From Cyanobacteria bacterium REEB446 (lineage in GTDB: Bacteria > Cyanobacteriota > Vampirovibrionia > LMEP-6097): DNA of 35,345 nt. Shown here one piece after another: positions 3 through 33,692 of this stretch. The notes under the pieces were generated by a model, which saw nothing but the letters and a program-made list of their open reading frames with translations, did not search any database and was not told the origin of the DNA. The position numbers and the translations under genes were made by a program. How positions within the stretch are numbered: position 1 is the first letter of the stretch; every line of letters begins with the position of its first letter. The stretch is from the NCBI GenBank assembly GCA_018970325.1, contig JAGWWP010000002.1, forward strand, positions 88,693 to 124,037. Direction: 5' to 3'.

Positions 3-356
3 GACTCTGCTGTTTTTGGCAAAGCAAAAGATCAAAGTTTCTATAGCTCAGTAAGTCAAATATATCAAAGCTTTGGAGGTGAAGAACTATACCCCTCCTT
101 AGAACAAAAAGCAGCTATGCTTTTATACCTCGTAGTAAAAAATCACTCTTTCATTGATGGTAATAAACGTATTGCAGCAGCATTATTTCTACATTTTCTT
201 GATAAAAATCAAATACTCTATCATCCATCTGGCAGCCGAGGAATCAGTGAAGAAGGACTTGCGGCTTTAACATTACTTATCGCAGCATCTAAACCAGAAG
301 AAAAAGATACTATGCTGAAGATTATCATTACTATTCTTAACAGGAGTCAATTATGA
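3..356 (+). CDS. Fic-domain protein, C-terminal part (5' end outside window)
   Basis: The reading frame is open from the first bases of the window, so this is the 3' part of a longer gene. The visible 117 residues contain HSFIDGNKR (bases 144-170), which matches the Fic motif HxFx(D/E)GN(K/R)xxR. Fic proteins usually transfer AMP or another nucleotide phosphate to a target protein, with the motif His as catalyst and the Asp/Glu binding metal. The sequence around it (YPSLEQKAAMLLYLVVKN before, then a helix-rich tail) resembles the Fic/death-on-curing proteins often found inside type I restriction loci. The stop overlaps the hsdS start in ATGA (353-356), so the two genes are probably cotranscribed and translationally coupled. 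An inhibitory helix, if there is one, would lie in the missing N-terminal part or in another gene. The target is unknown. Confidence 0.8.
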   Translation, partial: DSAVFGKAKDQSFYSSVSQIYQSFGGEELYPSLEQKAAMLLYLVVKNHSFIDGNKRIAAALFLHFLDKNQILYHPSGSRGISEEGLAALTLLIAASKPEEKDTMLKIIITILNRSQL

Positions 357-1528
357 AAGCTACAACAGAAAAGGCATTTGGAGCTAAGTTGCAGAGCGTG
401 TTTTCAAATCCCTGTGAAAAGTGGCAGACAAAGAAGCTTGGGGGAATTATTTCCTTAGAATATGGTAAGCCTTTGCTGGATTCACAGAGAGATTCATCTG
501 GTTTATATCCCGTTTATGGTGCCAATGGTATAAAAGATAGAACTAATGAATTTTATTGGGATAAGCCTAGTATTATAGTTGGCAGAAAGGGTTCCGCAGG
601 AGAGATAAATATAACTGAAAGTAAATTTTGGCCACTTGATGTTACTTATTTTATTAAATTTGACGAAGAGCTATATGATTTACGTTTTTTATATTATCTT
701 CTTAAGACTTTAAATCTCCCTCAACTAGCAAAGGGAGTCAAGCCTGGTATAAATAGAAATGAAGTCTATTCTGTTGAAGTGTGTGTCCCCGAATCTATTA
801 CAGAACAACACCGCATAGTCTCCATTCTTGATAAGGCTTTCACTGAAATAGATAAAGCTAAAAAAAATACTGAAGAAAGTATCAAAAAGAATAAAGAGCT
901 TTTTGAAGCAAAGTTGCGGAGCGTGTTTGCAAATACAAAGTCAGATTGGCAGACAAAGAAGCTTGGAGACATATGTGAAATGGCTCCTGGTGGCACACCG
1001 TTAAAATCAATTAAAGAGTATTGGCTAGATGGTAAAGTATCTTGGTATTCATCAGGTGAACTAAATGAATTGTATACTTCAGCCCCTCGTAAATGTATTA
1101 CGCACAAAGGGCTCGGCAATTCGAATACCAAACTGTTTCCAAAAGGCTCTTTATTAATTGGGATTTATGATACAGCCGCTCTTAAAATGTCAATTCTAGA
1201 TCGACAAGCAGCGTTTAATCAAGCAATTGTTGGTATCAAACCTAACTCACAGATAGAAGTAAAATTTATTTTTCACATCATAAATGCAATCAAAACAGAG
1301 ATATTAAACCAACGACGTGGCGTTAGGCAGAAGAACCTTAGTTTTGAAAAAATTAAAAACATAAGACTTCCACTGCCTCCTCTCCCTGAACAACACCGCA
1401 TAGTTGCAGAACTAGACGCAATTTCAGAAGAAACTAAAAAATTAGAAAAATTATACAGATCCAAACTCACCCACCTAGAAGAACTCAAAAAATCTATACT
1501 AAAACAAGCATTTGAGGGAAAATTATAA
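353..1528 (+). CDS. hsdS: Type I restriction-modification specificity subunit HsdS
   Basis: HsdS is the DNA-recognition subunit of a type I restriction-modification complex. At 391 residues it has the usual two-half layout: a target recognition domain (about residues 25-145), a conserved helix (EQHRIVSILDKAFTEIDKAK), a second target recognition domain (about 200-340) and a second conserved helix beginning PPLPEQHRIVAELD. Each target domain is preceded by nearly the same segment, FGAKLQSVF...WQTKKLG and FEAKLRSVF...WQTKKLG. The duplication is also present at DNA level, with an exact 20-base match at 422-441 and 947-966. The protein starts directly in this repeat segment, so the conserved region that normally precedes the first target domain is short. 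The ATG overlaps the end of the Fic gene and hsdR starts 3 bases after its stop. The recognised DNA sequence cannot be read from the protein. Confidence 0.92.
   Translation: MKATTEKAFGAKLQSVFSNPCEKWQTKKLGGIISLEYGKPLLDSQRDSSGLYPVYGANGIKDRTNEFYWDKPSIIVGRKGSAGEINITESKFWPLDVTYFIKFDEELYDLRFLYYLLKTLNLPQLAKGVKPGINRNEVYSVEVCVPESITEQHRIVSILDKAFTEIDKAKKNTEESIKKNKELFEAKLRSVFANTKSDWQTKKLGDICEMAPGGTPLKSIKEYWLDGKVSWYSSGELNELYTSAPRKCITHKGLGNSNTKLFPKGSLLIGIYDTAALKMSILDRQAAFNQAIVGIKPNSQIEVKFIFHIINAIKTEILNQRRGVRQKNLSFEKIKNIRLPLPPLPEQHRIVAELDAISEETKKLEKLYRSKLTHLEELKKSILKQAFEGKL
422..441 (+). repeat. hsdS internal direct repeat, copy 1
   Basis: This 20-base segment, TGGCAGACAAAGAAGCTTGG, recurs exactly at 947-966, 525 bases (175 codons) downstream and in the same frame. 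It is the core of a longer imperfect repeat (about 378-441 against 901-966) that precedes each target recognition domain. Such repeats are the usual substrates for recombination that swaps or deletes HsdS target domains. Confidence 0.9.
947..966 (+). repeat. hsdS internal direct repeat, copy 2
   Basis: Exact second copy of the 20-base repeat at 422-441. A second repeated pair in the same gene, 17 bases at 803-819 and 1388-1404, encodes the EQHRIV start of each conserved helix. The two halves of the gene are therefore bounded by matching sequence on both sides. Confidence 0.9.
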
Positions 1529-1531
1529 TCA

Positions 1532-3865
1532 GTGCGTAACGAAGCTGAAACGAGAGCCGAACTTATAGACCCTCTTCTTAAAGAATGTGGATGGGGAGTA
1601 GTTCCAGATTCTAAAATACTTAGAGAGTACAGAATCACAGAAGGCAGAATAGAAGCCACTGGTATTCGTGCTAAAGCTGATATCGCTGATTATATTCTTG
1701 TTTATAAAAATAAAAAACTAGCAGTTATAGAAGCTAAAAAGGAAAGCTTATCTGAGTCTGAAGGAGTCGCTCAAGCTAAAGACTATGCTTGTAAGTTACA
1801 GATAGAATACACTTATGCGACTAATGGCAGAGTAATTTATGAGATGTTTATGGGGACTGGGCTTGAGCAGCATGTCACCAAATACCCTAGTCCAGAAGAG
1901 CTATGGGGAAGAGTTCACCAAGAATATAGTGAATGGAAAGAAAATTTTAATGCTATTCCATTTGAAACGGTAAATGGGAAAAAGGTTCGTTATTATCAGG
2001 AATTAGCAGTTAATAATACCCTTGATGCTATAGCTGAAAATAAGGAAAGAATTTTGCTCACGCTTGCTACTGGTGCAGGAAAGACTTTTATTGCATTTCA
2101 GATAGTTTGGAAATTATTTCATGCTCGCTGGAACTTAAATCGTGACGGTAAAAGAAGGCCTCGAATACTTTTCCTAGCAGATAGAAATATTTTAGCTGAC
2201 CAAGCCTTTAATGATTTCTCAGCCTTCCCAGAAGATGCTTTAGTTCGTATTAATCCTAAAGAAATTAGCAAAAAAGGTAAAGTCCCGATGAATGGAAGTA
2301 TCTTCTTTACTATATTTCAGACCTTCATGAGTGGAGATGGAAAAACTCCTTATTATGGAGATTATCCTAATGATTTTTTTGATTTTATTATCATAGATGA
2401 ATGTCATCGAGGCGGTGCTAATGACGAGTCTAACTGGCGTGGTATTCTTGAGTACTTCTCTTTAGCAGTTCAGTTAGGTTTAACGGCTACTCCTAAGCGT
2501 AAGGATAATATTGATACCTATAAATATTTTGGTGAGCCAGTGTATATCTATTCACTTAAACAAGGTGTAAATGATGGTTTCCTCACTCCATTTAAAATTA
2601 AACGTATTAAGACTACACTCGATGATTATATTTACACGCCAGATGATGAAATTATAGATGGCGAAGTCGAAGAAGGGAAAATCTACGAAGAGAAAGATTT
2701 TAATAGAATTATAGAAATTAAACAGAGAGAGGCTTTTAGGGTGAAGCTAGCTCTTGATAATCTTAATCAAAATGAAAAATCTCTAGTCTTCTGTGCGACC
2801 CAAGAACATGCAGCCGCTATTCGTGATTTGATTAATCAATATAAAACAAATACTAATCCCCTTTACTGTGTTCGAGTTACATCTAATGATGGTGCTCTTG
2901 GTGAGCAGTATTTAAAAGATTTTCAAGATAATGAAAAAACTATTCCGACAATGCTTACCACTTCGCAAAAACTCTCTACAGGCGTGGATGCACGGAATAT
3001 ACGCAATATTGTTCTTTTAAGACCTATTAAATCCATGATTGAATTTAAACAAATCATTGGGCGAGGAACTAGGCTTTATGATGGTAAAAATTACTTTACT
3101 ATTATTGATTTTGTTGATGCCTATAAACATTTCTCTGACCCAGAATGGGACGGTGAGCCGATAGATAACACTATTGAGGATGAGGGGGAATCTAATAAAC
3201 CAATCCCAGAGCAGCCTACTGAAGAGCCAGATTTGGTCGATGAGGAAGAGGAAGAAAATACTAAAAAGAAAAAACTGAAAATTAAACTTAGAGACGGAAA
3301 AGAAAGAGAAATACAGCATATGGTATCTACCATGTTTTGGAGTGCTGATGGCAAGCCTATTTCAGCTGAACAGTTTTTAGAAAATTTATTTGGAACTTTA
3401 CCAGAATTATTTAAGAATGAAGATGAATTGCGTGAAATTTGGTCAAGTCCTTTAACTCGTAGCAAATTTTTGGAAAAGCTGTCAGATATTGGCTATTCGA
3501 GAGATAAACTTGAAGCTTTACAGAAATTAGTTCAAGCAGAGGATTCTGATTTATTTGACGTACTTGCCTATGTAGCATTTGCAAGGCAACTAATATCAAG
3601 AGAAGAAAGGGTGTCTAAAACTAAGCAGAGCATTACAAATAGCTTAAATAATCAGCAGAAAGAATTTATTGAATTTGTTTTAGAGCAGTATATAGAAAAA
3701 GGAGTGGATGAGCTAAATGAAGAGAAGATTCCAGATCTTATTAAGCTGAAATATCATGCTGTAACCAATGCTGAAGAAGCTTTGGGTAGTGTCTCTAAAA
3801 TAAGAAATACTTTCTTTGAGTTTCAGAAAATACTTTATCATTATCATCAGCCTAAAGTTGCTTAA
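1532..3865 (+). CDS. hsdR: Type I restriction endonuclease subunit HsdR, EcoEI-like
   Basis: This is the ATP-dependent translocase and nuclease subunit of the type I system. The N-terminal nuclease domain has a PD-(D/E)xK pattern: Asp50/Asp53, then VIEAKK with Glu67 and Lys69. The helicase motor follows, with Walker A ATGAGKT (179-185), motif II DECH (289-292), motif III LTATP (about 317-321) and motif VI IIGRGTRLYDGK. An acidic and then lysine-rich linker separates the motor from a C-terminal domain that probably contacts HsdM/HsdS. At 777 residues it fits the short HsdR family typified by EcoEI, not the roughly 1,100-residue EcoKI type. The start is GTG, 3 bases after the hsdS stop. All catalytic motifs look intact, so the subunit should work if hsdM lies upstream of the window. 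Confidence 0.95.
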   Translation: MRNEAETRAELIDPLLKECGWGVVPDSKILREYRITEGRIEATGIRAKADIADYILVYKNKKLAVIEAKKESLSESEGVAQAKDYACKLQIEYTYATNGRVIYEMFMGTGLEQHVTKYPSPEELWGRVHQEYSEWKENFNAIPFETVNGKKVRYYQELAVNNTLDAIAENKERILLTLATGAGKTFIAFQIVWKLFHARWNLNRDGKRRPRILFLADRNILADQAFNDFSAFPEDALVRINPKEISKKGKVPMNGSIFFTIFQTFMSGDGKTPYYGDYPNDFFDFIIIDECHRGGANDESNWRGILEYFSLAVQLGLTATPKRKDNIDTYKYFGEPVYIYSLKQGVNDGFLTPFKIKRIKTTLDDYIYTPDDEIIDGEVEEGKIYEEKDFNRIIEIKQREAFRVKLALDNLNQNEKSLVFCATQEHAAAIRDLINQYKTNTNPLYCVRVTSNDGALGEQYLKDFQDNEKTIPTMLTTSQKLSTGVDARNIRNIVLLRPIKSMIEFKQIIGRGTRLYDGKNYFTIIDFVDAYKHFSDPEWDGEPIDNTIEDEGESNKPIPEQPTEEPDLVDEEEEENTKKKKLKIKLRDGKEREIQHMVSTMFWSADGKPISAEQFLENLFGTLPELFKNEDELREIWSSPLTRSKFLEKLSDIGYSRDKLEALQKLVQAEDSDLFDVLAYVAFARQLISREERVSKTKQSITNSLNNQQKEFIEFVLEQYIEKGVDELNEEKIPDLIKLKYHAVTNAEEALGSVSKIRNTFFEFQKILYHYHQPKVA

Positions 3866-4189: not shown

Positions 4190-7141
4190 GTGAATACGAC
4201 CTTACCTTTTAAAGCTAGTTATGATTTCCTTGAAGCTGAGCAGAAGTGGTTAGCCGTTTGGTTAGATAAAAAAATCTTCCAAGTAAATAAAGACCTAAAT
4301 AATGGTCGTGAAGTTTTTAGTATAGCCCTGCCACCGCCTAATGTTACTGGGGAGCTACATATGGGGCATGCCTTGGGCGGAACTATACAGGATGTATTAA
4401 TTCGCTATCATCGTATGCGTGGCTATGATGTTCACTGGCAGATTGGTTCAGATCATGCGGGTATCGGAACACAGTTAGTCGTAGAAAAAAAACTTAAGGG
4501 TGAAGAGAAGCTTAGAAAGGAAGATTTAGGCAGAGAAGCTTTTCTTGAAAGAATTCAGGCTTGGAAGGAACAGTCTGGTAATCAGATTCTTGAGCAGATG
4601 AAAAGGCTCGGCTTTAGTCCAGATTATGATCGTACTCGTTATACTATGGATGCTCAGTATCAAGAAGCGGTGCTGGCTGCTTTTAAAAAGTATCACGCTG
4701 AAGGCTATATATATAAAGGGAAACGCTTAACGAATTGGTGTCCTAAATGTTTAACCTCTCTTTCTGACTTAGAGATAGAAGAACCTGCTAAAACTAAAAA
4801 GCTCTATGAAATTAAATATAAGTTAGAAAAGCCTTATGGTGAAGTTCAGGAATTAATAGTAGCGACGACTAGACCTGAAACTATGTTTGGCGATACAGCT
4901 GTAGCTATTAATCCATATGACGAAAGATATTTAAGTTTAATTAATGAAATAAAGTCTAAACCTAACTCTGTAAAGGTTTTAATACCGTTTATTAATAAAG
5001 CTATTCCAGTTATATTAGATGAGCAGGTTAAATTAGATTTCGGAACGGGAGCTTTAAAAGTCACTCCAGCTCATGATTTTAACGATAATCTTATCGGGAA
5101 AAGACATGGACTTGCTGAGCTAAATATATTTAATGATAAAGCTGAGCTTTTAGCTATACCTGAAGTTCCTACTGAGTTTCAAGGGCTTGATAGATATAAG
5201 GCAAGAACTGCTGTAGAGAAGGCTTTAGCTTTAAACGAGGCTTTAGTGAAGGTTACAGAATATACAGGGACTGAAAGTTTGCATGATAGATGTAATACTG
5301 AAATAGAGCCAGCTTTAAGTGATCAGTGGTATTTAAGTATGAAGCAGCTTGCTGAAATGGCTTTAAATAGAGTTATTAATAAGGGCTTAGATGATTCTGA
5401 GAGAACAGATTTTATTCCAGAAAGATACGAAGAGCCTTTTAAAGCCTGGCTTGAAAACATTCAGGATTGGTGTATTAGTCGCCAGATATGGTGGGGGCAT
5501 CAGATTCCTATCGAAGGTGAAACAGATGTATTAGATACTTGGTTCAGTAGTGCATTATGGCCGTTTATTAGTATGGCTGATGATGAAGCTGTGCTTAAGA
5601 AGTACTACCCGACTACTGTTTTAGCTACGGCAAGAGAAATTATTAATCTCTGGGTAACTAGAATGATATTTTCTAGTGAATTCTTTAGGCAGGAAAAGGC
5701 TTTCAGTAAAGTGCTAATTCACCCAGTAGTACAGACACCAGATGGTAAAAGGATGAGTAAGTCTAAAGGTAATGCTATAGATCCATTACTTTTAGTTAGA
5801 AATTATGGTGCTGATGCTTCTCGAATGTGGTACGCACAGGTAGGGGTTTTTTCTAGTCAGGATGTGCGTTTCCCAGGTAAATCATTTCCAAGTAAAGAAG
5901 ATCCTAAAGTGAAAGATTGGGAATGTGAGGTGATGGAGAAGTATAAACGCTTTGCTAATAAGCTTTATAACTCTGCGAAATTTACTTGTATGAATTTAGT
6001 CGAAGATCCTAGTTATAAAAGTACTGGGAAATTTAAGGTTAAGCCTATCACTGAGCTGAATTTTAATGAAATGACTTTTGCTGATAGATGGATACTCTAT
6101 ACATTAGAAGAAGTTCTATTTAATGTTTCTGATGCTTTTGCTAGATATGATATAGGTGCTGCACAGGAGTTGATCTTTGATTTCACTTGGAATCATTTCT
6201 GTGACTGGTATATAGAGTTTTCTAAAATACAGGATAATTTAGAAACTAAAAATCAGGTGCTGTTCTACGTTTTAGCCTCTGCTCTTAGAGCTTTGCAGCC
6301 ATTTATGCCATTCGTGACAGAGGAAATCTGGCAGAGCTTAATGCAGATCGTAGATTTTGCGGGAGTAGAGGATGATTATTTCACTGAAGAGTATAAAGCC
6401 AAGCCTTATGTGGCTTTCGCTAAATTTCCAGAAGATCAAAAAGGGCAAATAGCTTTTCTTAGAGCTGCACTCGCTGAAACGAAGGGCATAGGAGCTTTTC
6501 AGGAAAAAGCTAATGTCATTTGGTCAATGAAATTAGCAACTGAAATCATCTCTAAAATTAGAAATACTAGGCAGAGTTTAAATATCTCTTGGAGTGATGA
6601 AATTAAGCTATTTGTATCTAATCCTAGTGAAGCAGATATTTCTACCTTAATCGAGATTAGTCCTTATATAAAAAGAATAGCTAAATGCTCAGATATATTT
6701 ATGGACGAGGCTGTCCCAGAAAAGCCTTTAAGTAGTTTTATTATTAAATCAGAAAACGCAGGAATTGGAGATTGCGAGCAGCTTAAAGATGGGACTGCTC
6801 ACAATCGTGCAAGTTCAAGGCTGAGGAGGACGAATGACCGCAGTGTACTACAGGTACATGAGGATCATGAGGACAACGAAAACGCAGGAATTGGAGATTG
6901 CGAGCAGTCCCAAGAGATGTTTTTTCATATTCCGTTACAAGGCTTAGTCGACATAGATAAATTAAAAATCAATCTAGAAGATAAACTCAGTAAATTAAAT
7001 AAATCTAAGCAGCAATTAGAGACCCGTTTAGCTGCTATGTTAAATAAAGCTCCAGAGGAAAGGATTCAAGAGGCTAAAGGTGATCTAGAAAAGCTAAATT
7101 TAGAAGAGAAAATTTATTTAGAAGAATTAAATAGTCTTTAA
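4190..7141 (+). CDS. valS: Valyl-tRNA synthetase
   Basis: ValRS charges tRNA-Val with valine in the cytoplasm. The class I signatures are present: PPPNVTGELHMGH (HIGH-type, His57-His60) and RMSKS (about 521-525). The editing domain is visible around FGTGALKVTPAHDFND, followed by WCISRQIWWG and DVLDTWFSSALWPF, the anticodon-binding helices, and a C-terminal coiled coil. The start is GTG at 4190. Two things are unusual. The segment between WWGHQIP and DVLDTWFSS is about 5 residues, where E. coli ValRS has about 30 and many others carry a zinc knuckle. Residues about 855-907 are an in-frame insertion of a repeated palindromic element, placed between the anticodon-binding region and the coiled coil. 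Both catalytic motifs are intact, so the enzyme is probably functional. Confidence 0.97.
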   Translation: MNTTLPFKASYDFLEAEQKWLAVWLDKKIFQVNKDLNNGREVFSIALPPPNVTGELHMGHALGGTIQDVLIRYHRMRGYDVHWQIGSDHAGIGTQLVVEKKLKGEEKLRKEDLGREAFLERIQAWKEQSGNQILEQMKRLGFSPDYDRTRYTMDAQYQEAVLAAFKKYHAEGYIYKGKRLTNWCPKCLTSLSDLEIEEPAKTKKLYEIKYKLEKPYGEVQELIVATTRPETMFGDTAVAINPYDERYLSLINEIKSKPNSVKVLIPFINKAIPVILDEQVKLDFGTGALKVTPAHDFNDNLIGKRHGLAELNIFNDKAELLAIPEVPTEFQGLDRYKARTAVEKALALNEALVKVTEYTGTESLHDRCNTEIEPALSDQWYLSMKQLAEMALNRVINKGLDDSERTDFIPERYEEPFKAWLENIQDWCISRQIWWGHQIPIEGETDVLDTWFSSALWPFISMADDEAVLKKYYPTTVLATAREIINLWVTRMIFSSEFFRQEKAFSKVLIHPVVQTPDGKRMSKSKGNAIDPLLLVRNYGADASRMWYAQVGVFSSQDVRFPGKSFPSKEDPKVKDWECEVMEKYKRFANKLYNSAKFTCMNLVEDPSYKSTGKFKVKPITELNFNEMTFADRWILYTLEEVLFNVSDAFARYDIGAAQELIFDFTWNHFCDWYIEFSKIQDNLETKNQVLFYVLASALRALQPFMPFVTEEIWQSLMQIVDFAGVEDDYFTEEYKAKPYVAFAKFPEDQKGQIAFLRAALAETKGIGAFQEKANVIWSMKLATEIISKIRNTRQSLNISWSDEIKLFVSNPSEADISTLIEISPYIKRIAKCSDIFMDEAVPEKPLSSFIIKSENAGIGDCEQLKDGTAHNRASSRLRRTNDRSVLQVHEDHEDNENAGIGDCEQSQEMFFHIPLQGLVDIDKLKINLEDKLSKLNKSKQQLETRLAAMLNKAPEERIQEAKGDLEKLNLEEKIYLEELNSL
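6752..6911 (+). repeat. Palindromic element inserted in frame in valS
   Basis: A 121-base element (6791-6911) begins GGGACTGCTCACAATC and ends GATTGCGAGCAGTCCC; these ends are inverted repeats matching at 15 of 16 positions. Its exact centre (6844-6858) is a smaller hairpin, TGTAC-TACAG-GTACA. The 30-base right end (6878-6907) is repeated exactly at 6752-6781, just left of the element. The two copies are 126 bases apart, which is 42 codons, so recombination between them would delete the segment without a frameshift. The coding frame stays open, giving ENAGIGDCEQ twice and ASSRLRRTNDR in between. Related sequence is found elsewhere in the window at 11893, 14086, 20479, 27656, 32355 and 32481. 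Confidence 0.85.
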
Positions 7142-11892: not shown

Positions 11893-11927
11893 GAGGAACG
11901 CAGAGATTGAATATGGAGAGCAGTCCC
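11893..11927 (+). repeat. Repeat-element copy spanning an intergenic gap and start codon
   Basis: GAGGAACGCAGAGATTGA followed by GAGAGCAGTCCC matches the right half of the valS element and the intergenic copy at 27656-27697 (AACGCAGAGATTGA is identical in the latter). The copy begins in the gap after the small secreted gene and runs through the TTG (11907) and ATG (11913) start candidates of the ATP-grasp gene. It therefore supplies both the purine-rich ribosome site and the first few codons. Confidence 0.7.
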
Positions 11928-12824
11928 TTAGATTTAGCTGTGCCTAAAGCTGTTAGTGATACTTATTCTGTTTTTATAGTCTGTGATTTAGATCCAAGGT
12001 ACTTAAGTTCGACTCTAGATTTCTTAAATTCTTTTAGTTCTGAAAAATCTCTATCTAAAACTTTTTCTACCGTTTCAATTGAAGAGTTTTTAAGTTGGCG
12101 ATTGGATTTTAATCCATCGGCAGAAGTTTTATGCTTACATCTCAGTCTAGATAATGAAATTAAAAACCATAAATTAATATCAGATCACGCTTTTAAATTG
12201 AGACTTAAGCAGTTAAATCCTTATAACTCTTTCTCTGAACTTTTTGATAATAAATTTTTATTCTATAATTTCATGCTAGCGCAGGGTTTTAAGCAAGCAA
12301 AAACCTATTTTATTAAGAAAGATGAGTCTCTGACTGAATTATCTGCGACTCTCCAGGCTCTTGGCTCTGGTTTGAAATTAGATTATCATCCTAGTCCTTC
12401 TATTTGCTTTGTTTTGAAACCCTGTTTTGGAACGGAATCTATAGATCAGTATTCTTTTAACCTTGAAGATATTATTCTGAAGGCTCCTGAATTTTTGGAA
12501 AAAATTGCTTTAATTCATCAATATGATTCAGTATTAATTCAGGAAAAGCTCAATTTTAAAGAAGAATATAAGATTATTTTTTTAGAAGGATATCTTTTTT
12601 CTGCTAAAGCTTTATCAGAGAATCTTTTGGTTCTTTGTCAAGAATTTTTAAAAGCTCTTGAAGATTATGCAAAATTAATGAGAGAAAGTCTTAATAGGTT
12701 TTTTTCGATAGATGTATTAGAACTGTTTAATGGAGAATTGGTTGTACTGGAGACTAATTCTAGACCTGCTGGGATTTATAAATGCATTAATTTTTCCTAT
12801 TTATTGAAAGATAGAGATCGATAA
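11907..12824 (+). CDS. ATP-grasp domain protein
   Basis: The C-terminal two thirds have ATP-grasp features: VLKPCFGTES (about 170) at the nucleotide-binding Lys, VLIQEKLNFKEEYKIIF (about 210-228), the glycine-containing strand FLEGYLFSA, and a metal-binding end FSIDVLELFNGELVVLETN with Asp and Glu-x-Asn (about 268-282). ATP-grasp enzymes join a carboxylate to an amine or thiol through an acyl-phosphate; the substrates here cannot be told. The N-terminal 110 residues are a separate domain resembling the pre-ATP-grasp fold. Start choice: TTG at 11907 has GAGG 10 bases upstream; ATG at 11913 is two codons in. Both lie inside a repeated element. Neighbours are secreted proteins, so a role in cell-surface modification is possible but unproven. 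Confidence 0.8.
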   Translation: MNMESSPLDLAVPKAVSDTYSVFIVCDLDPRYLSSTLDFLNSFSSEKSLSKTFSTVSIEEFLSWRLDFNPSAEVLCLHLSLDNEIKNHKLISDHAFKLRLKQLNPYNSFSELFDNKFLFYNFMLAQGFKQAKTYFIKKDESLTELSATLQALGSGLKLDYHPSPSICFVLKPCFGTESIDQYSFNLEDIILKAPEFLEKIALIHQYDSVLIQEKLNFKEEYKIIFLEGYLFSAKALSENLLVLCQEFLKALEDYAKLMRESLNRFFSIDVLELFNGELVVLETNSRPAGIYKCINFSYLLKDRDR

Positions 12825-13812: not shown

Positions 13813-15522
13813 GTGGTATTAGTAGATAGAAGAAGTCTTATGAAATTTCTGGGTTTAGGATTGGCCTTGCCAGCTTTAAACTCTTGTGACAGTCTTATTG
13901 AACATTTTTCTTATAATAAAAATCTTGAAGTTAGTCCAGGTCTTGAATTTAACTCACTACTTGGTACTTTTAAATCTTTAGAAGCTAGTTCATTAGATGA
14001 ACTAGTGCTTCCTGAAGGGTATAGTTACGATATTATTCGCTCGTATGGAGATGTGATTTTACGCTCTAAGCCTGAAAGTGAATCGGAGAAATCCGCAGAG
14101 AATGGAGTTGGTCAGAGGCGTCTGGAGGGCAGTGAAAACGCAGTAATTGGAGTTCCCGAGCAGCTGCAAGATCTAAAGTTTGGCTATAATAACGATTATA
14201 TAGGTTTTATTCCTTTAAGTAGTGATGAAGCTTTGCTTGCTGTGAATCATGAGTTTTTAGATCCTTTAGATATTCCAGTTGAAGTGGAGCAGAGAAAAGC
14301 TGTCGGTGTCTCGATTCTAAAAATAAAGAAGGACAGTCATGGTCTGTGGAAGTTTGATGAAGATCCAGAGTCTCAGCGAGAATTTAATAGACGTATAACT
14401 GCAAATACACCTTGCGCTGTTAGTGGTGCGGTAGCAGAGCTTTATCCTGAAATGACTGGAACGCTTGCTAACTGTAGTGGGGCTATAACGCCATGGAATA
14501 CGGTGCTTACTTGTGAGGAAAATTATTATTTATTTGATGAAGTTTATAAATGGAAAAGTTTTGATGCAAGGCAGTATGGCTGGATAGTAGAAATTAATCC
14601 TTTAAAACCAGATTCTAAGCCGATTAAGCATACTGCTTTAGGGCGCATGGCTCATGAGAACTGTGCTTTGGTTAGATCAAATGATGACAGAATGGTAGTC
14701 TACATGGGAGATGATAAAGAACGTCAATTTATTTATAAATTTGTTTCTAAAAATCCTGTAACAATGCCTAAGAATTTTAAAAATCTTGATCTTGAGCCTC
14801 ATTTGAGTCCTTTTTCTGAAGGAGATCTATACGTAGCTAAGTTAGATAAGGATTTAAAATTTACTGAACTTAACTCAGGTAAAGGTAAGTGGTTAAAACT
14901 GAGTCTAGATAATCCAATCTTAAAATCTAAATTTAAATCACAGGCAGAGCTTTTGATAGAAACTAGGTTAGCTGCTAAATATCTAGCAGCTACACCTATG
15001 GATAGACCAGAGTCATTGTCTGTGAGTCCTAAAGATGGCTCCATTCTTGCTGCTTTGACTTATAGTCCTGCTGAAAACAATAATTTTGGCTCACTGTTTA
15101 GAATCATCGAAGATAATCCTCACTCTGAGTCGATGACCTTTCATTATGAGAATTTAATTATTGGCGGCAAAGCCTCTGGCTTTGCTTGCCCTGATAATAT
15201 TTATTTCGATAAAAACAGTAATTTATGGTTAGCTACTGACATTGATGGTGCTAAGTTGAATAAAGCACCTTATGATTTTCAAGGAAATAACAGTCTTTTT
15301 GTTATTCCGAGTGAAGGTACTCATGCTGGTAAGGCACTTCGTTTTGCAAGTGCTCCATCTGGAGCAGAGTTCTGTGGAATCTGTTTCTCGGAGGATTATA
15401 AGACTCTGTTTCTTTCCGTGCAACACCCTGGAGAAGGCGGCTTACAGAGTAGATGGCCTTATGGTACTAATGTCGCTAAATCATCTTTAGTCGCTATTTA
15501 TCAAGAACTAGAGTGGTGGTAA
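13813..15522 (+). CDS. phoX: PhoX-like (DUF839) alkaline phosphatase
   Basis: PhoX enzymes are calcium/iron-dependent alkaline phosphatases exported by the Tat system that free phosphate from organic esters outside the cytoplasm. The N-terminus has a Tat-type signal: DRRSLMKFLGLG (Arg6-Arg7), a hydrophobic stretch and a Cys at NSC that could be lipid-modified. Family segments are LAVNHEFLDPL, GTLANCSGAITPWNTVLTCEENY, LGRMAHENCALV, VVYMGDDKERQFIYKFVS and PDNIYFDKNSNLWLATD. Length (569) is slightly below that of typical bacterial PhoX. Residues about 92-117 are a low-similarity insertion containing two repeat-element copies (ENGVGQ, ENAVIGVPEQ), just before the first conserved segment. The GTG start at 13813 places the twin arginines correctly. 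A related DUF839 protein with other substrates cannot be excluded. Confidence 0.85.
   Translation: MVLVDRRSLMKFLGLGLALPALNSCDSLIEHFSYNKNLEVSPGLEFNSLLGTFKSLEASSLDELVLPEGYSYDIIRSYGDVILRSKPESESEKSAENGVGQRRLEGSENAVIGVPEQLQDLKFGYNNDYIGFIPLSSDEALLAVNHEFLDPLDIPVEVEQRKAVGVSILKIKKDSHGLWKFDEDPESQREFNRRITANTPCAVSGAVAELYPEMTGTLANCSGAITPWNTVLTCEENYYLFDEVYKWKSFDARQYGWIVEINPLKPDSKPIKHTALGRMAHENCALVRSNDDRMVVYMGDDKERQFIYKFVSKNPVTMPKNFKNLDLEPHLSPFSEGDLYVAKLDKDLKFTELNSGKGKWLKLSLDNPILKSKFKSQAELLIETRLAAKYLAATPMDRPESLSVSPKDGSILAALTYSPAENNNFGSLFRIIEDNPHSESMTFHYENLIIGGKASGFACPDNIYFDKNSNLWLATDIDGAKLNKAPYDFQGNNSLFVIPSEGTHAGKALRFASAPSGAEFCGICFSEDYKTLFLSVQHPGEGGLQSRWPYGTNVAKSSLVAIYQELEWW
14086..14163 (+). repeat. Two degenerate repeat-element copies inside phoX
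   Basis: GAGAAATCCGCAGAGAATGG (14086-14105) continued by AGTTGGTCAG, and GAAAACGCAGTAATTGGAG (14134-14152) continued by TTCCCGAGCAG, both align to the 30-base right end of the valS element. The second is the better match. They encode SAENGVGQ and ENAVIGVPEQ, in the same reading phase as ENAGIGDCEQ in valS, and lie 48 bases apart in the linker between the signal region and the conserved PhoX core. Confidence 0.65.
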
Positions 15523-18026: not shown

Positions 18027-19280
18027 ATGAGGTCTACTAAGTTATACTTAAGTCTAATGACCTCATCAGATTTTGATACCGTAGAATCAGCTATAGAAGA
18101 TATTCGTAACGGAAAGATGATTATTGTTGCGGATGATGATAATCGTGAAAATGAAGGTGATTTAATCTGTGCAGCCGAGAAAGTAAGCCCAGAGATTATT
18201 AATTTTATGAGCAAGCATGCTCGTGGTTTGATTTGTTTAACTTTAGATTCAGAGACTGTAAAGAAGCTTAATTTAGATGATATGGTAAGGGAAAATACCG
18301 ATGCTAATAAGACAGCTTTTACTATTAGCATTGATGCTGATCCACGTTTTGGGGTGACTACTGGTATAAGCGCTTTTGATCGAGCTAAGACTATAGAAGT
18401 AGCTTTAGCAAATGATGTTGTCGCCAGTGATCTGAGAAGACCAGGGCATATTTTCCCTCTTAAGTCCGTAGAGGGTGGTGTTTTGAAGAGGGTTGGTCAT
18501 ACTGAGGCTTCAGTGGATCTTGCTCGCTTAGCTGGTCTTAAACCATCTGGAGTTATCTGTGAAATTCTTAAAGATAATGGTGAGATGGCTAGGCGTGATG
18601 ATCTTTTTAAGTATGCTAAAGAGTTTGGGCTGAAATTCATTACTATAGCTGATTTGGTGGCTTATAGACTTAAGAAAGAACGTTTTGTGCATCGTATTGT
18701 AGATGTAGCTCTGCCAAATAAGTATTCCGAAGATTTTAGAATATATGGTTATAAAGATTCTCTTTCGGATAAAGAGCACGTAGCTTTAGTTTTAGGTGAT
18801 TTAGAGAAAGCTGTTGAAGATTCTAAGCCAGTTTTAGTTAGGGTGCATAGTGAATGCTTAACTGGAGATTTATTTGGTAGTTTGCGCTGTGATTGTGGAA
18901 CCCAGTTAGATGGAGCGATTAAACAGATTCGTGAAGCAGGTTTGGGTGTTTTAGTATATTTAAGGCAGGAAGGCAGGGGCATTGGTCTTTTAAATAAATT
19001 AAAGGCATATGAATTACAGGATGAAGGTCACGACACGGTTTCTGCTAATTTACAGTTAGGTTTCCCTGCTGATTTAAGGACTTTCGGCGTAGGAGCACAG
19101 ATACTCTCTGATTTAGGATTGAAGGAAATTAAACTGCTTACTAATAATCCAAAGAAGATTTATGGGATAGAGGGATATGGTCTGAAAATCACAGAAAGGG
19201 TTCCACTGCATTATGAAGCATGTAAGCATAATGAAAAATACTTAGAGACTAAGAGAAACAAGTTAGGTCATTTATTTTAA
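18027..19280 (+). CDS. ribBA: Riboflavin biosynthesis bifunctional protein RibBA
   Basis: RibBA makes both precursors of riboflavin. The N-terminal half is 3,4-dihydroxy-2-butanone 4-phosphate synthase, acting on ribulose 5-phosphate: DDDNRENEGDLI, SKHARGLICL, RPGHIFPL and GHTEASVDLARLAGL are all present. The C-terminal half is GTP cyclohydrolase II: VHSECLTGDLFGSLRCDCG supplies the three zinc cysteines, RQEGRGIGLLNKLKAYELQ the catalytic region, and NNPKKIYGIEGYGL the GTP site. At 417 residues it is standard length. ATG 18027 has GGGAGG about 16 bases upstream; an in-frame ATG at 18057 begins nearer the family's usual N-terminus. The stop overlaps the mutL ATG by one base, so the genes are coupled. 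Other riboflavin genes are not in the window. Confidence 0.97.
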   Translation: MRSTKLYLSLMTSSDFDTVESAIEDIRNGKMIIVADDDNRENEGDLICAAEKVSPEIINFMSKHARGLICLTLDSETVKKLNLDDMVRENTDANKTAFTISIDADPRFGVTTGISAFDRAKTIEVALANDVVASDLRRPGHIFPLKSVEGGVLKRVGHTEASVDLARLAGLKPSGVICEILKDNGEMARRDDLFKYAKEFGLKFITIADLVAYRLKKERFVHRIVDVALPNKYSEDFRIYGYKDSLSDKEHVALVLGDLEKAVEDSKPVLVRVHSECLTGDLFGSLRCDCGTQLDGAIKQIREAGLGVLVYLRQEGRGIGLLNKLKAYELQDEGHDTVSANLQLGFPADLRTFGVGAQILSDLGLKEIKLLTNNPKKIYGIEGYGLKITERVPLHYEACKHNEKYLETKRNKLGHLF

Positions 19281-21382
19281 TGCCGATAAGAATACTATCT
19301 GATTTGATTGCTAATCAAATAGCTGCAGGTGAAGTAGTAGAAGGGGCTTTATCTGTTGTTAAAGAATTAGTTGAAAACAGTATAGATGCTGGAGCTAATT
19401 CGATTGCAGTGGAGCTTAGTAAACAGCTTAGATACATTAAAGTTTCGGATAATGGTTCTGGTATTCCAGTAAATGAAATACCTTTAGCTTTCACTCGCCA
19501 TGCGACTAGTAAGATTACAGAAATAGAGGATTTATTTTCTATAGATTCTAATGGTTTTAGGGGAGAGGCTTTAGCGAGTATATCTTCTGTCAGTAAAGTT
19601 ACCTGTATTAGTAAAACTAGATCTGAAGCTGATGCTACAAAATTTTATATAGATGCTGATAGAGAAGAAGTATCCTCTGTGGGTGCTGGAGTCGGTACTA
19701 GTATAGAGGTGGATGAGCTTTTTTATAATACTCCAGCTCGTTTGAAGTTTATGAAGTCTGTGGTAAAAGAAAAGCAGAATATTATAGATCTATTAAAAGC
19801 CTTTTCTATATTCAATCCTAATGTTTCTTTTGAACTCTTAATTGATGGAAAAACCCAGTTTAAGGTTTTAAAAGATCAGCCTTTTAAAGTTACAGCACGT
19901 GAATTATTTGGCAGATCTGCATTTGAGCATTTAATTAATTTCGAATATAATACTGGAGCGATTAAAGTTTCAGGCTACTTAGCAGCTCCAGAGCTGAATC
20001 GTAGCGACAAGCGATATTATTTTACTGCGGTAAATAAGCGTATTATTAAATGTAATACTATAAGATCTGCTGTGGATAGGGTTTATAAAGATTTATTACC
20101 TGTAAAGAAATATCCGATTATCATCATTAATTTAGAGTTGCCGAGCTCAGATGTCGATGTTAATGTACATCCGCGTAAACAAGAAGTTAAATACCTGCAC
20201 GCTAATGAAGTTTATAGAACTTTAATCACCGCAATTTCTACTAATTTATCTGAGTATTTTTATAAATGTTCAGAATATAAACAGTTAGAGATTTTCAACC
20301 CAGTACTAGCAGATTTAGAACCTCATGCTGATTCGGATACTGCTAGTCGAGAAAATATTAGTGCTTATTCTGAAACGGAAACATTTTCGATATCACAGCC
20401 TAAGTTAGCAGTCTTGCCTAAGATCCATAGAGAATTTACACCTTCAAGTTTGAGTACGCCTAGTATAAGTCTAGATCAGGGGGGGGGAGCTGAACGAACA
20501 AGTTCAAGGCTGACCTATCAGGACTCTGGGGTGAGTGAAAGTGGCATCGTGCATCAGTTTCGGAGTGACAGTGATAAGACTTTATCTTTCCTTACAAGGT
20601 TCCCGTCTATTGAGGTGAATTTTATAGAAGGAAATCTTTCTGATTACCTTGAGGGTATTAGTTTTGATGAGCGAGAAGAGAGTTTTAAAATCTTCAGTGC
20701 TAATGCTGATCAGTCTTTTGGGTTTTTAGTAACAGGTAAATTATTCCCAGTCGATGAAAGTATTCAGGATTTATATTTAGATTCTTTAGAAATATTTACT
20801 AAGAAGCTGTTAGAGACTAAATCTGAAGATAATTTACTGTATGCTGAATCTAATTCTTTAAAGGAGTTAGCCATAATGACGGAAGGTACTTCTTTAGATA
20901 AACAAGCTGCAACTCAATTACTTTCTAAAAAAAAAACAGCGACTAAACTTTCAAGACCTAGTATAAAACCTCCTTTAGGGCAGCTTGAGGAGATTTGGGC
21001 TAGAGATAATTATTCATGTGTATACTGTGCTAAAGCACTTATTCACCCTAAGGTGGTGAAACAGGCTTTACTTAGAGCTGAATCTGAATCAATCTCTTGG
21101 CTTAATGCACGCAATCAAACAATTAGCGAGCATTTGATTGAAGCACATAAAGCTTCCTTTGATCATCATTTGCCAGCCTCTAAATTTGCGGTCTTGAATT
21201 TAGACTCTCGTAATCTTTTTGCTACTTGTAGAGAATGTAATCAGAGAAAATCTGCAAGTTTAGCTAGTAAAACTTGGACACCACGGCAAGTAAATTCTTG
21301 GGCTAATTTTTCAATTAATAATCCCTTAGAGCTAGCTGGAGTAAAATTTATATCAGCGTTAGAGGCGATTTATGATAATTAA
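19280..21382 (+). CDS. mutL: MutL mismatch-repair ATPase fused to a C-terminal HNH nuclease domain
   Basis: MutL couples MutS mismatch recognition to strand removal. Residues 1-330 are a normal GHL ATPase plus transducer: GEVVEGALSVVKELVENSID (Glu29, Asn33), DNGSGI (57-62), TRHATSKI (72-79), GFRGEALASI (92-101) and VDVNVHPRKQEVKY. After a linker (about 340-430), the expected C-terminal dimerisation/endonuclease domain with its DQHA(x)2E(x)4E motif is not recognisable. Instead residues about 569-700 form an HNH nuclease domain: CVYC (580-583), DHH (628-630), then NLFATCRECNQRKS with Asn645, Cys650, Cys653 and Asn654. These are the metal-binding cysteines and catalytic residues of an active-type HNH. 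The linker has a nine-G run (20479-20487) and a fragment related to the valS element. The next gene overlaps by 11 bases. Confidence 0.93.
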   Translation: MPIRILSDLIANQIAAGEVVEGALSVVKELVENSIDAGANSIAVELSKQLRYIKVSDNGSGIPVNEIPLAFTRHATSKITEIEDLFSIDSNGFRGEALASISSVSKVTCISKTRSEADATKFYIDADREEVSSVGAGVGTSIEVDELFYNTPARLKFMKSVVKEKQNIIDLLKAFSIFNPNVSFELLIDGKTQFKVLKDQPFKVTARELFGRSAFEHLINFEYNTGAIKVSGYLAAPELNRSDKRYYFTAVNKRIIKCNTIRSAVDRVYKDLLPVKKYPIIIINLELPSSDVDVNVHPRKQEVKYLHANEVYRTLITAISTNLSEYFYKCSEYKQLEIFNPVLADLEPHADSDTASRENISAYSETETFSISQPKLAVLPKIHREFTPSSLSTPSISLDQGGGAERTSSRLTYQDSGVSESGIVHQFRSDSDKTLSFLTRFPSIEVNFIEGNLSDYLEGISFDEREESFKIFSANADQSFGFLVTGKLFPVDESIQDLYLDSLEIFTKKLLETKSEDNLLYAESNSLKELAIMTEGTSLDKQAATQLLSKKKTATKLSRPSIKPPLGQLEEIWARDNYSCVYCAKALIHPKVVKQALLRAESESISWLNARNQTISEHLIEAHKASFDHHLPASKFAVLNLDSRNLFATCRECNQRKSASLASKTWTPRQVNSWANFSINNPLELAGVKFISALEAIYDN
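20479..20513 (+). repeat. Nine-G tract and repeat-element fragment in mutL
   Basis: Positions 20479-20487 are nine consecutive G in an otherwise AT-rich gene. Shortly after, AAGTTCAAGGCTGA (20500-20513) is identical to 6811-6824 in the valS element and is read in the same phase, giving SSRL in both proteins (ERTSSRL here, NRASSRL in ValRS). The segment lies in the linker between the MutL ATPase and the C-terminal part. The present length keeps the frame open; gain or loss of one G would truncate the protein before the HNH domain. Confidence 0.75.
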
Positions 21383-27540: not shown

Positions 27541-27655
27541 ATATAGTGCGTTAAGCTTTGCTAGTTAGTATCTTACCACCAATTCTAAAGCAGGTATCAA
27601 ATCAACTTAGTTAGAGTGATTTAAATTATCAGAATTTAAGAAAGTATAAATCATC

Positions 27656-27697
27656 AGGACGACGAAAACGCAGAGATTGAAGATTGTGAGTAGTCCC
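27656..27697 (+). repeat. Intergenic repeat-element copy between clpC and the LuxR gene
   Basis: CAGGACGACGAAAACGCAG (27655-27673) continued by AGATTGAAGATTGTGAG and ending TAGTCCC closely matches the right arm of the valS element (from GAGGACAACGAAAACGCAGG to GAGCAGTCCC). It lies 8 bases from a strong terminator hairpin and upstream of clpC, in the spacer where insertion does no coding harm. Its left arm is not present, so it is a half copy. Confidence 0.75.
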
Positions 27698-30745: not shown

Positions 30746-33692
30746 TACTAATGAGATTCGCAGAGCTTGGATAAATTTTTTTGAAAAAGACTGTGGACTA
30801 GAGCATAAATTTTATAAAAGTGCTTCTTTAGTACCTGATAATCCTACGCTACTGCTGAATTCAGCTGGCATGGTGCCTTTTATTCCATATTTTATAGGAG
30901 CGACTAAAAGACCAGAGCCACCGAGGGCTGTAAGTATACAGAAGTGTGCTCGTGTCGGTGGCAAAGACAGCGATTTAAGTAATATTGGTTACACACAAAG
31001 ACATCATAGTTTTTTTGAGATGTTGGGGAATTTTTCTTTTGGTAATTACTTTAAGCAAGAAGTTATCCCTATGGCTTGGAAATTCGTTACTGAAGTTTTA
31101 GGACTCTCACCTGAAAAGCTTTATGTATCAGTTTTTGAAGGTGATGATACTAGACCTTTTGATGAAGAGTCTTATAATCTTTGGGCTGATATTTTTAAAA
31201 ATGTTTATCCTGAAAAAGAAATCGCTGAGCATATTTGGAAATTAACGGCGAAGGATAATTTCTGGGGACCACCAGGTCCTACTGGTCCTTGTGGTCCTTG
31301 TAGTGAAATCTATTATGATCTTGGGGAGCATATTTTAGATAAGGATGATAGATATATAGAAATCTGGAATCTAGTATTTATGCAGTTTGAAAAGCTAGAT
31401 GACGGTAGTTTAAAACCTTTAGAGCACAAGAATATAGATACTGGTGCTGGTTTAGAGCGTATAGCGATGGTTTTGCAGGGTGTTAATAATACTTTTGAAA
31501 CAGATGAGCTTGCTGAGTTGGTGTCTGCGACGAAGGCTGAGGTTTTTAAAGGTAGTGTTATACCTGAGGGGAAATCTTATTCTGAGATCAGCGAATTGTC
31601 TTCGAAGAAAGAGTTTGAGGCATATTTTAAAATTATCGTAGATCACTTACGCTGTGCTTGTTTTCTTATAGCAGATGGTGTCAGACCTAGTAATGTAAGT
31701 AGAGGTTATGTGCTTAGAATGTTGATTAGGAGAGCGGCACGCTTTTTACATAAACTGGGTAATAGCTCTGAACCGCTTTTATATAAGTTATCAGAGAAAG
31801 CAGTAGATATTTATGGAGCTTTTTATGATGAGCTGGTTTTAAGTAAGGAGCTTATAGTAAGTGTGCTTAGAAAAGAGGAAGAGCTTTTTGCTAAGACGGT
31901 TGAGAATGGCTTGAAAAACTTAGATCTTATAGTTCGTGAGAATAATTCAGTCTCTATTCCTACATTGAGCGGTGCTATTCTTTTTAATCTTTATTCTACA
32001 TATGGTTTGCCACTTGAAATTGTTGAGGATGTTATTGAGGATTATCGTAAACAGGGATTTTCGCTAGAAATCGATTATGAAGGCTATGAAAAAGCTCGTG
32101 AAGAGCATTCTAAAGCTTCTTCGACTTCTGCTTTTAATGTCTCAGTAACTTCCGAAAAATCGCTATCACAGCTTTTACAGGCTTATCCTAAAACAGAGTT
32201 TTTAGGTTACGCTCAGGAAGAGACTGAAGCTGAGATCTTAATGATTTTAGATAAGGATAAAAATCCTATTTCTGAAATTAATTTCTCGGATATTTTGGCT
32301 AAGAAAAATTCTGATTTAGTTTCAGAAAAACTTGTTTCTACTGAAAATCATAAAGAGACCGCAAATGGAGTTGTGCAACGGTCTCATAAAGATGATTACG
32401 AGTTTTTTTTAGTACTAGATAAGACTACTTTTTATGCTGAGTCTGGTGGTCAAGTGTCTGATTCAGGATATATTATTAAAGACCTTGCAAGGATGACGAA
32501 TGACGGTAATGTAGAAGAGCCTTTGACGGAATTTTTAGATGATAATCTGAAAATTAATATTTCTCATAATCTATTATTTAAGGTCTCTGATGTAAAAGCT
32601 ATAGATGGTCGCATCTTACATAAACTAGTCATAGAGCTGCCTTGCGATTCTATTTCTAAAGACACGCAGGCAGTTTTAAAAACTGGTGATTTAATTAAAG
32701 CACAGATAAATTCAAAGCAGCGTTTGCTCACGAAGTTTCATCATAGCTCTTGTCATTTACTGCAAGCTGCTTTGAGGAAGGTGTTAGGAAATACAGTTAC
32801 TCAAGCGGGTTCTCTGGTCTCTGCGGAATATACACGTTTTGATTTCAATTATGAATCAGCCCTTAGTAAAGAACAGTTAAATGCAGTGGAAAAACAGATG
32901 AATGATTGGGTTAAGGCGGCTTTACCTGTAACCACTATAGAGACTAGCTTTGATGAGGCGATTAAATTAGGAGCGTTGGCATTTTTTGAAGATAAGTATG
33001 AAGATACTGTAAGAGTCTTGAAAATAGCGAGTGAATCAGAGCTAGCTTCAGTGGAGCTTTGTGGTGGGACGCATGTGTCGAATACAGCCGAAATAGCTCA
33101 AGTGAAGATAGCTAGTGAATCTTCTGTCGCTAGTGGAGTTAGGCGTATAAAACTTTTTGTAAATGAGTGTGCTGAAAGATTTATTAAAGAAGAGCAGCTG
33201 AAGCAGTCTGAGATAGAAGAATTAGAGAAGCGTAAAGAGATTGAGAAGCAGTTAGAGAATGAGAAAAAAGCAGGGAAATTACATCTATTAAATGCTAAAA
33301 CAGATGAGTTTTTAAAACTGGCGCTTGAAAAAGACGGGAGAACTTTTATTATTGCTGATCTTAATAAAATCGTTGATTTTACCCTCGACGCAGATGTCTT
33401 GAAAGATTTTGCTGCTAATCTTAAGGGAAGTTTAGAAGCAAAAGGGCTTTTAGTATGGCTTTTCTTGATTGGGGCTTTTGATCAAAAGGTAACTATTTTA
33501 GGAGCTTGTTCTAAATCTCTTGCAGAGATTGAGAAATTTAAAGTTAATAATCTAATTAAATCTGCGGCTAATATTTGTGGTGGAGGCGGAGGCGGCCGTC
33601 CTGATTTCGCTCAGGCTGGTGCTAAAAATATAGCTAAAATTCCAGAAGCTCTAGCTATGATTAAAAGCACAGTGCTAGAAGGTGTTCAATAA
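30732..33692 (+). CDS. alaS: Alanyl-tRNA synthetase
   Basis: AlaRS charges tRNA-Ala with alanine and edits mischarged serine and glycine. Start: ATG 30732 gives [17 protein letters not shown], the family's usual N-terminus; an in-frame GTG at 30711 has a better ribosome site (GAGG) but would add seven atypical residues. The catalytic core includes LLNSAGMVPFIPYF, RVGGKDSDLSNIG and GPTGPCGPCSEIYYD. The editing domain has HHSSCHLLQAALR and CGGTHVSNT, the zinc-type His and Cys residues. The C-terminal C-Ala domain ends NICGGGGGGRPDFAQAG. The 986 residues exceed the typical 870-880, partly through extra segments in the middle, two of which (542-552 and about 584-595) resemble the repeat element found in valS. 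It overlaps ftsH by 14 bases and abuts the next gene. Confidence 0.96.
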   Translation: MKKLSTNEIRRAWINFFEKDCGLEHKFYKSASLVPDNPTLLLNSAGMVPFIPYFIGATKRPEPPRAVSIQKCARVGGKDSDLSNIGYTQRHHSFFEMLGNFSFGNYFKQEVIPMAWKFVTEVLGLSPEKLYVSVFEGDDTRPFDEESYNLWADIFKNVYPEKEIAEHIWKLTAKDNFWGPPGPTGPCGPCSEIYYDLGEHILDKDDRYIEIWNLVFMQFEKLDDGSLKPLEHKNIDTGAGLERIAMVLQGVNNTFETDELAELVSATKAEVFKGSVIPEGKSYSEISELSSKKEFEAYFKIIVDHLRCACFLIADGVRPSNVSRGYVLRMLIRRAARFLHKLGNSSEPLLYKLSEKAVDIYGAFYDELVLSKELIVSVLRKEEELFAKTVENGLKNLDLIVRENNSVSIPTLSGAILFNLYSTYGLPLEIVEDVIEDYRKQGFSLEIDYEGYEKAREEHSKASSTSAFNVSVTSEKSLSQLLQAYPKTEFLGYAQEETEAEILMILDKDKNPISEINFSDILAKKNSDLVSEKLVSTENHKETANGVVQRSHKDDYEFFLVLDKTTFYAESGGQVSDSGYIIKDLARMTNDGNVEEPLTEFLDDNLKINISHNLLFKVSDVKAIDGRILHKLVIELPCDSISKDTQAVLKTGDLIKAQINSKQRLLTKFHHSSCHLLQAALRKVLGNTVTQAGSLVSAEYTRFDFNYESALSKEQLNAVEKQMNDWVKAALPVTTIETSFDEAIKLGALAFFEDKYEDTVRVLKIASESELASVELCGGTHVSNTAEIAQVKIASESSVASGVRRIKLFVNECAERFIKEEQLKQSEIEELEKRKEIEKQLENEKKAGKLHLLNAKTDEFLKLALEKDGRTFIIADLNKIVDFTLDADVLKDFAANLKGSLEAKGLLVWLFLIGAFDQKVTILGACSKSLAEIEKFKVNNLIKSAANICGGGGGGRPDFAQAGAKNIAKIPEALAMIKSTVLEGVQ
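32355..32385 (+). repeat. Palindromic repeat copy in alaS, first
   Basis: GAGACCG (32355-32361) and CGGTCTC (32379-32385) are a perfect inverted repeat around 17 bases that include CAAATGGAGTTG, like ATGGAGTTG in the first phoX copy. It encodes ETANGVVQRS in frame, in a region of AlaRS that is not conserved. The relation to the valS element is weaker than that of the other copies. Confidence 0.5.
32481..32514 (+). repeat. Palindromic repeat copy in alaS, second
   Basis: CCTTGCAAGG (32483-32492) is a perfect palindrome. It runs on into GACGAATGACGGTAATGTA, which matches GACGAATGACCGCAGTGTA in the middle of the valS element at 16 of 19 positions. It encodes ARMTNDGNV, comparable with RLRRTNDRSV in ValRS, in the same phase. 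Confidence 0.6.

Follow-up and report, generated by a model that had tools for sequence, protein, structure and literature searches.

The window analysed here, a stretch of 35,345 nt, carries the gene valS at positions 4190-7141, which hosts a full 121-nt element at 6791-6911 together with an upstream partial copy; all element copies in the window, and the target-site copies described below, lie on the + strand. The full element sits in codon phase 0, scores 139.7 bits with covariance model R1 and is absent from the valS of L033. Its flanks resemble a target-site duplication, with AAGAT on the left (6786-6790) and AAGAG, a 4/5 match, on the right (6912-6916), both assigned from the sequence and from the 5-bp duplication statistics given below. 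The element is a near-palindrome, and its length of 121 bases and inverted ends matching at 15/16 positions (GGGACTGCTCACAATC / GATTGCGAGCAGTCCC), as given in a preliminary description of the window, were confirmed. Just upstream, positions 6752-6781 hold a 30-nt remnant of the 3' end of an earlier copy, encoding ENAGIGDCEQ and recognised as direct repeat D1, and the valS frame stays open through both. As L033 lacks the valS segment and nothing comparable exists in the ValRS of T. thermophilus (1gax), it is not native protein sequence.

Further copies are scattered through the window. A 3'-end remnant lies between two open reading frames (ORFs) at 11893-11927, where 38 nt are missing from the orthologous L033. 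Two degenerate 3'-end remnants in phoX (14086-14163; ..SAENGVG.. and ENAVIGVPEQ) were recognised by comparison with two congeners, G001 and G002: the site carries a full element in G001, a shorter remnant in G002 and only remnants in the present genome. In mutL, a 5'-end remnant (20486-20513; AERTSSRL) was identified by a left-core match and is common to G002, while a 48-nt intergenic 3'-end remnant at 27650-27697 is cleanly missing from both congeners. The alaS gene contains an internally deleted copy at 32355-32385 that has kept both complementary ends (GAGACCG...CGGTCTC) and is common to G001 and G002, as well as a possible, very degraded core remnant at 32481-32512, which rests on core resemblance only (GACGAATGACGGTAATGT), in a region that diverges in relatives. 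The preliminary description had listed copies at 11893, 14086/14134, 20479, 27656, 32355 and 32481; comparison with relatives upheld each of them as real except the last, which remains unconfirmed. A minor correction is that all except the valS copy are fragments and not whole elements.

Some neighbouring features were also recorded. The ORF at 11907-12824 has a weak match to ATP-grasp (R2K clade), and the 11893 remnant, located at its start or immediately before it, may be the source of a new start region. MutL (19280-21382) has its N-terminal ATPase and transducer domains, without a recognised MutL C-terminal domain; its tail (aa ~530-700) resembles an HNH nuclease (CVYC...CREC; PF01844, E 0.006, below the cut-off). 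Near the window edge, at 353-3865, an ORF pair resembles type I restriction HsdS and HsdR, as judged by eye only.

A scan with ValS grouped the genome with Candidatus Caenarcaniphilales, of the Vampirovibrionia/Melainabacteria lineage of Cyanobacteriota, and not with Rickettsiales; ValS identity was 91-92% to isolates LMEP_6097 and RE-15aug16-7, and 64% to DT_14. The assembly of the present genome (G000) comprises 2.25 Mb in 97 contigs. The genomes used are metagenome assemblies; nevertheless, the element family recurs in independent assemblies of the host family. The family of palindromic elements proposed earlier held, and is larger than claimed, with dozens of copies genome-wide: blastn detected 41 strong copies, and the genome-wide profile scan that had been named as a check, carried out with a covariance model built from 25 copies (A1/R1), found about 54 long copies (E < 1e-19), besides shorter internally deleted ones. 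Many remnants exist in addition to the long copies. With a tolerance of up to 3 mismatches, core patterns matched 69 left cores and 94 right cores, against 0 for a reversed control. Three length classes could be distinguished, namely the 121-nt form (46 copies), a long form of approximately 190-200 nt and short forms of 63-94 nt.

Among copies the inner core hardly varies, and the central loop holds a few hypervariable bases (one codon and a third position). The terminal 15-16 nt, GGG...CCC and variants, differ in sequence from copy to copy while their complementarity is kept: 13/15 pairs of the terminal stem have changed on both sides, a covariation reached by 0/500 shuffles. Over the whole structure 97.5% of cells pair, which no shuffle matched, and folding predicts a strong hairpin (z -4). 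An every-third-base pairing in the RNAalifold model was judged to be a composition artefact and set aside, and no structured RNA, intron or ribozyme in Rfam matched the element. The long form carries an extra module of about 78 nt inside the central loop.

Several structural details may be added as observations. Columns 60-63 of the element, at the hairpin tip, are hypervariable among copies that elsewhere exceed 90% identity, as though each transposition wrote them anew. The ~78-nt module is structured (CCAGCGATGCCGAGCATGCGA...GCAAGCGGAAATACAAGCTTG...) and was seen in seven G000 copies (L151:2501-2699, L145, L180, L194, L176, L141 and L201), among which its own small hairpin likewise seems to covary. 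Tandem arrays with 126-nt spacing occur within one ORF (L192, G000:C60:10515-10811; also G002:C33). Moreover, full copies often lie a few bases 3' of a 3'-end remnant that is older and differs in its terminal arm (L001, L002, L003, L011, L015-L018, L020, L029), an adjacency that suggests either that tolerated spots are hit repeatedly or that the element prefers certain sites.

Evidence for mobility came from the flanks. At a length of 5 bp, mean identity between the two flanks was 0.674, as compared to 0.384 in shuffled data (sd 0.028; z about 10), with 14/46 copies having perfect duplications, while lengths of 2-4 and 6-9 bp gave no comparable signal; the target-site duplication is thus 5 bp, of varied sequence. 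Each insertion adds 121 + 5 = 126 nt, that is, 42 codons. The ubiX site is exactly empty in G001, which reads TTAT-CTCAG-GGTT against TTATCTCAG-element-CTCAGGGTT in the present genome, with CTCAG as the duplicated target. At pseC/degT, the present genome has a full copy, G001 an empty site and G002 a 30-nt right-end remnant with the same terminal arm; in gltX, the full copy of the present genome corresponds to a 33-nt left-end remnant in G002, and purH, radA and cysN carry differing element forms across the three genomes. Because congeners have empty sites or shorter forms, and the window copies behave alike, we consider the insertions to be recent, to differ between species and to decay by frame-keeping deletions. 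Insertion, the target duplication and the decay of shared insertions are shown by these comparisons, and neither the 5-bp duplication, nor the remnants left by in-frame decay, nor the Caenarcaniphilales host had figured in the preliminary description. The source of mobility was not recovered: among unpaired ends no autonomous parent above approximately 200 nt was present, the unpaired left ends inspected being internally deleted or truncated copies, and no element with a transposase was found by this route, although no dedicated transposase search was made. Phage and plasmid collections gave no match when one divergent copy (L231) was the sole query, and viral contigs gave nothing with two core patterns. 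None of 292 genomes of the phylum contained a strict core pattern, which is weak evidence, as that pattern misses the present genome itself.

Position relative to genes follows a strict rule. Full 121-nt copies lie inside ORFs in 28/46 cases, all of them in sense and in codon phase 0. In 0.45 Mb of the present genome, 30 full and 39 remnant genic copies were likewise in sense frame 0 without exception (69/69), the other five frames being unoccupied, and in G001 the in-frame genic copies were 18/18 sense phase 0; the genic share there is lower (18/47 in frame). These counts are not fully independent, as insertions are partly common to congeners and remnants cluster near full copies. Sense frame 0 of the element is stop-free, while sense frames 1 and 2 contain stops, so that purging explains the phase-0 rule. 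The antisense frame 0, however, is open in 31/46 copies and yet unused by genic copies of the present genome; if an open frame were the only filter, finding no antisense copy among 28 would have P = 5e-7. Under random landing, with sense phase-0 or intergenic copies as survivors, a genic share of 64% is expected, as compared to 61% observed; the expectation rests on the 91% coding DNA of a single window and on the assumption that intergenic copies survive equally well. An insertion that keeps the frame therefore appears to do hardly more harm than one between genes. Elsewhere in the family and class, other genera have a smaller proportion of in-frame genic copies (5/41, P = 2.5e-6), and one antisense in-frame copy occurred among them (L365, G007). 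The open frame and the sense phase-0 rule are thus shown, while purging itself is inferred.

The host genes include the tRNA ligases for valine (valS), glutamate (gltX) and glycine (glyS), GMP synthase (guaA), signal peptidase I (lepB), PurH, RadA, UbiX, CysN, RibD, GltD, PdxA, ArgJ, acireductone synthase and leucyl aminopeptidase. Profile matches often break at the insertion (CysN, GuaA, UbiX, PdxA, ArgJ), which indicates that insertions fall mid-domain and not in tails. For UbiX, the counterparts of the two flanks in 6m8v are residues 3-25 and 29-52, with only a 3-residue turn between them; tolerance at surface loops, as suggested earlier, is thereby supported for this protein. The core of genic copies carried 13 synonymous and 49 nonsynonymous substitutions, where random changes would give 51:189; the figures for intergenic copies were similar (10:50). 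As the genic ratio matches random changes and intergenic copies behave alike, the peptide is without detectable selection; this absence of protein-level constraint is shown from the sequences. That the added peptide is a tolerated passenger is our conclusion, with tolerance and translation being inferred in the absence of expression or protein data.

Overall, the element is likely a selfish, non-autonomous palindromic transposable element that is tolerated in sense phase 0, its other genic insertions being purged; translation, tolerance, purging and mobilisation in trans are inferred. It inserts by a 5-bp staggered cut, as the duplicated target shows, and each insertion accordingly adds 126 nt, exactly 42 codons. 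A copy landing in sense at codon phase 0 would extend the protein by a hydrophilic stretch of 42 residues and be tolerated almost like an intergenic insertion, while other genic insertions would be purged. Copies then decay by frame-preserving deletions, leaving scars of 10 to 15 residues such as ENAEIGVCEQ, and mobilisation would be provided in trans by an unidentified transposase. The strict sense rule would further require selection against the usually open antisense peptide, or an insertion bias.

Such a bias is the core of the alternative that survives best, in which insertion is directional relative to transcription, for instance through a single-stranded or RNA intermediate, and the sense rule reflects mechanism and not purging. 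The absence of antisense in-frame copies despite a frame open in 31/46 speaks for it, as do terminal arms that change and stay complementary, as if one arm templated the other. However, one antisense in-frame copy exists in another genus (L365, G007), and purging of a more hydrophobic antisense peptide fits the same data; the orientation of intergenic copies was not tested. We regard this alternative as unlikely.

Less probable still, and in our view very unlikely, is that the element is selected for, either as a useful peptide linker or as a structured mRNA segment acting in regulation or mRNA stability. The strong covariation of the terminal stem arms (13/15 pairs, 0/500 shuffles) and the known effect of ERIC on mRNA stability (PMC2229807) could be taken in its favour. 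Nevertheless, synonymous and nonsynonymous changes fit the random expectation, copies differ between sister species and decay, the genic share equals that of passive landing, and a mobility machinery that depends on complementary ends would produce the stem covariation just as well. It is also highly improbable that the host protein lacks the segment altogether because it is cut out of the RNA or bypassed by the ribosome. In favour of this, the essential GltX, GuaA and ValS tolerate 42 extra residues, and the hairpin predicted is strong (z -4); but 69/69 genic copies keep the single fully open sense frame and decay in frame, which would be needless if the segment were removed, and an intron or ribozyme match in Rfam is absent. 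Finally, native low-complexity protein sequence or chance resemblance of fragments, to which only the weakness of short remnants taken singly lends support, is all but excluded by empty sites, the target-site duplication, nucleotide conservation across unrelated genes and 0 control-pattern matches, being refuted for all listed copies except 32481, with a native protein segment ruled out by empty sites and solved homologues.

When compared with known systems, the element most resembles in behaviour the Rickettsia palindromic elements (RPEs), palindromes of 105-150 nt with an open frame that sit within unrelated protein genes and preserve their reading frame (Ogata et al. 2000, 2002; PMC10969869, PMC2229807). 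The present element meets the same description of a palindrome of approximately 100-150 nt with an ORF, in frame in many unrelated genes. It differs in phylum (Cyanobacteriota, not Rickettsiales) and in its 5-bp target-site duplication and empty sites, the duplication being listed as unknown for RPEs (PMC2229807, Table 1). The RPE1 model TIGR01045 had no match in the genome, although 14 control genomes were likewise without a match, and no NCBIfam or Pfam model matched the element peptide at E<=10. As far as tested, the element is unrelated to RPEs in sequence and works like them; the RPE-like behaviour of a different family put forward in the preliminary description is therefore supported by dozens of copies, by genic copies in sense and in frame, by empty sites and by the lack of an RPE1 match. 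Protein-coding palindromic repeats also exist outside Rickettsia. Wolbachia palindromic elements are one such group, and coding palindromes of M. jannaschii are another (Suyama et al. 2005, cited in PMC2229807); neither was compared in sequence. With bacterial MITEs (Correia/NEMIS, RUP, QMITE) the element shares its short length, inverted ends, a target-site duplication and the lack of a transposase gene, but its terminal arms vary among copies while remaining complementary, and most full copies (28/46) are genic and in frame.

Divergent relatives, detected with the cross-genus model A2/R2, occur in every sampled member of the host family and also in one further genus of the class. Outside the phylum, model R2 found relatives in 13/43 tested genomes, mostly Desulfobacterota, with 38 in Geothermobacter hydrogeniphilus and 65 in Desulfobacteraceae RAAP-1. 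The boxes CAAGGC, GGAGTTTAC-loop-GTAAATGAGG and AACGCAG are common to the relatives, and no published sequence of the motif was found in the open-access literature searched. Separately, palindromic elements that are divergent yet built alike were seen in abundance in genomes of Desulfobacterota and others (L252-L266), and no described family was matched to them.

The enterobacterial ERIC/IRU/RU-1 repeats show a likeness in structure: these are 127-nt palindromes with a 42-codon open frame (PMC2759123) and a similar box order (AAGGC, GGAGnTTAC-loop-GTAAnTGA, AACGCA), and E. coli copies may carry an internal insert of about 70 nt (L267), as the present element has a form longer by about 78 nt. 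The best hit of models R2 and R3 was ERIC in both uninterrupted E. coli ERIC loci, with E values of only 0.02-0.2, and a simple gapped profile against ERIC was matched by 0/500 shuffles at gap 5/1 and 4/0.5, and by 8/500 at 7/1. On the other hand, ERIC has TA termini, whereas the present element has GGG...CCC-type ends and a 5-bp target-site duplication. Moreover, ORF fusions of RU-1/ERIC have been reported at C-terminal regions, outside conserved domains (PMC2759123), while the present element inserts mid-domain, with 28/46 full copies genic and in frame, against an intergenic criterion for ERIC. Homology with ERIC is possible; the evidence is suggestive and not proof, since ERIC was chosen for comparison because it looked similar.

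In-frame palindromic elements have so far been regarded as peculiar to Rickettsia and a few other organisms, and no signature of their insertion was known; the present element is apparently an independent case in the cyanobacterial phylum. It offers a clean 5-bp target-site duplication and empty sites, together with a sense-and-frame filter that could be quantified and a decay to peptide scars that can be followed in essential enzymes. Two questions thereby become accessible to testing: by what means such elements move, and to what extent the indels and loops of bacterial proteins have evolved as scar tissue of selfish DNA. A bolder reading, to which we give less credence than to its contrary, would join ERIC, the Caenarcaniphilales elements and those of Desulfobacterota in one ancient cross-phylum superfamily, defined by the CAAGGC / GGAGTTTAC-loop-GTAAATGAGG / AACGCAG boxes and by re-templated complementary arms, from which a stop-free 121-nt version would have arisen in one genus and invaded protein genes harmlessly. 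If so, protein-coding palindromes would be a repeatable evolutionary outcome of such elements.
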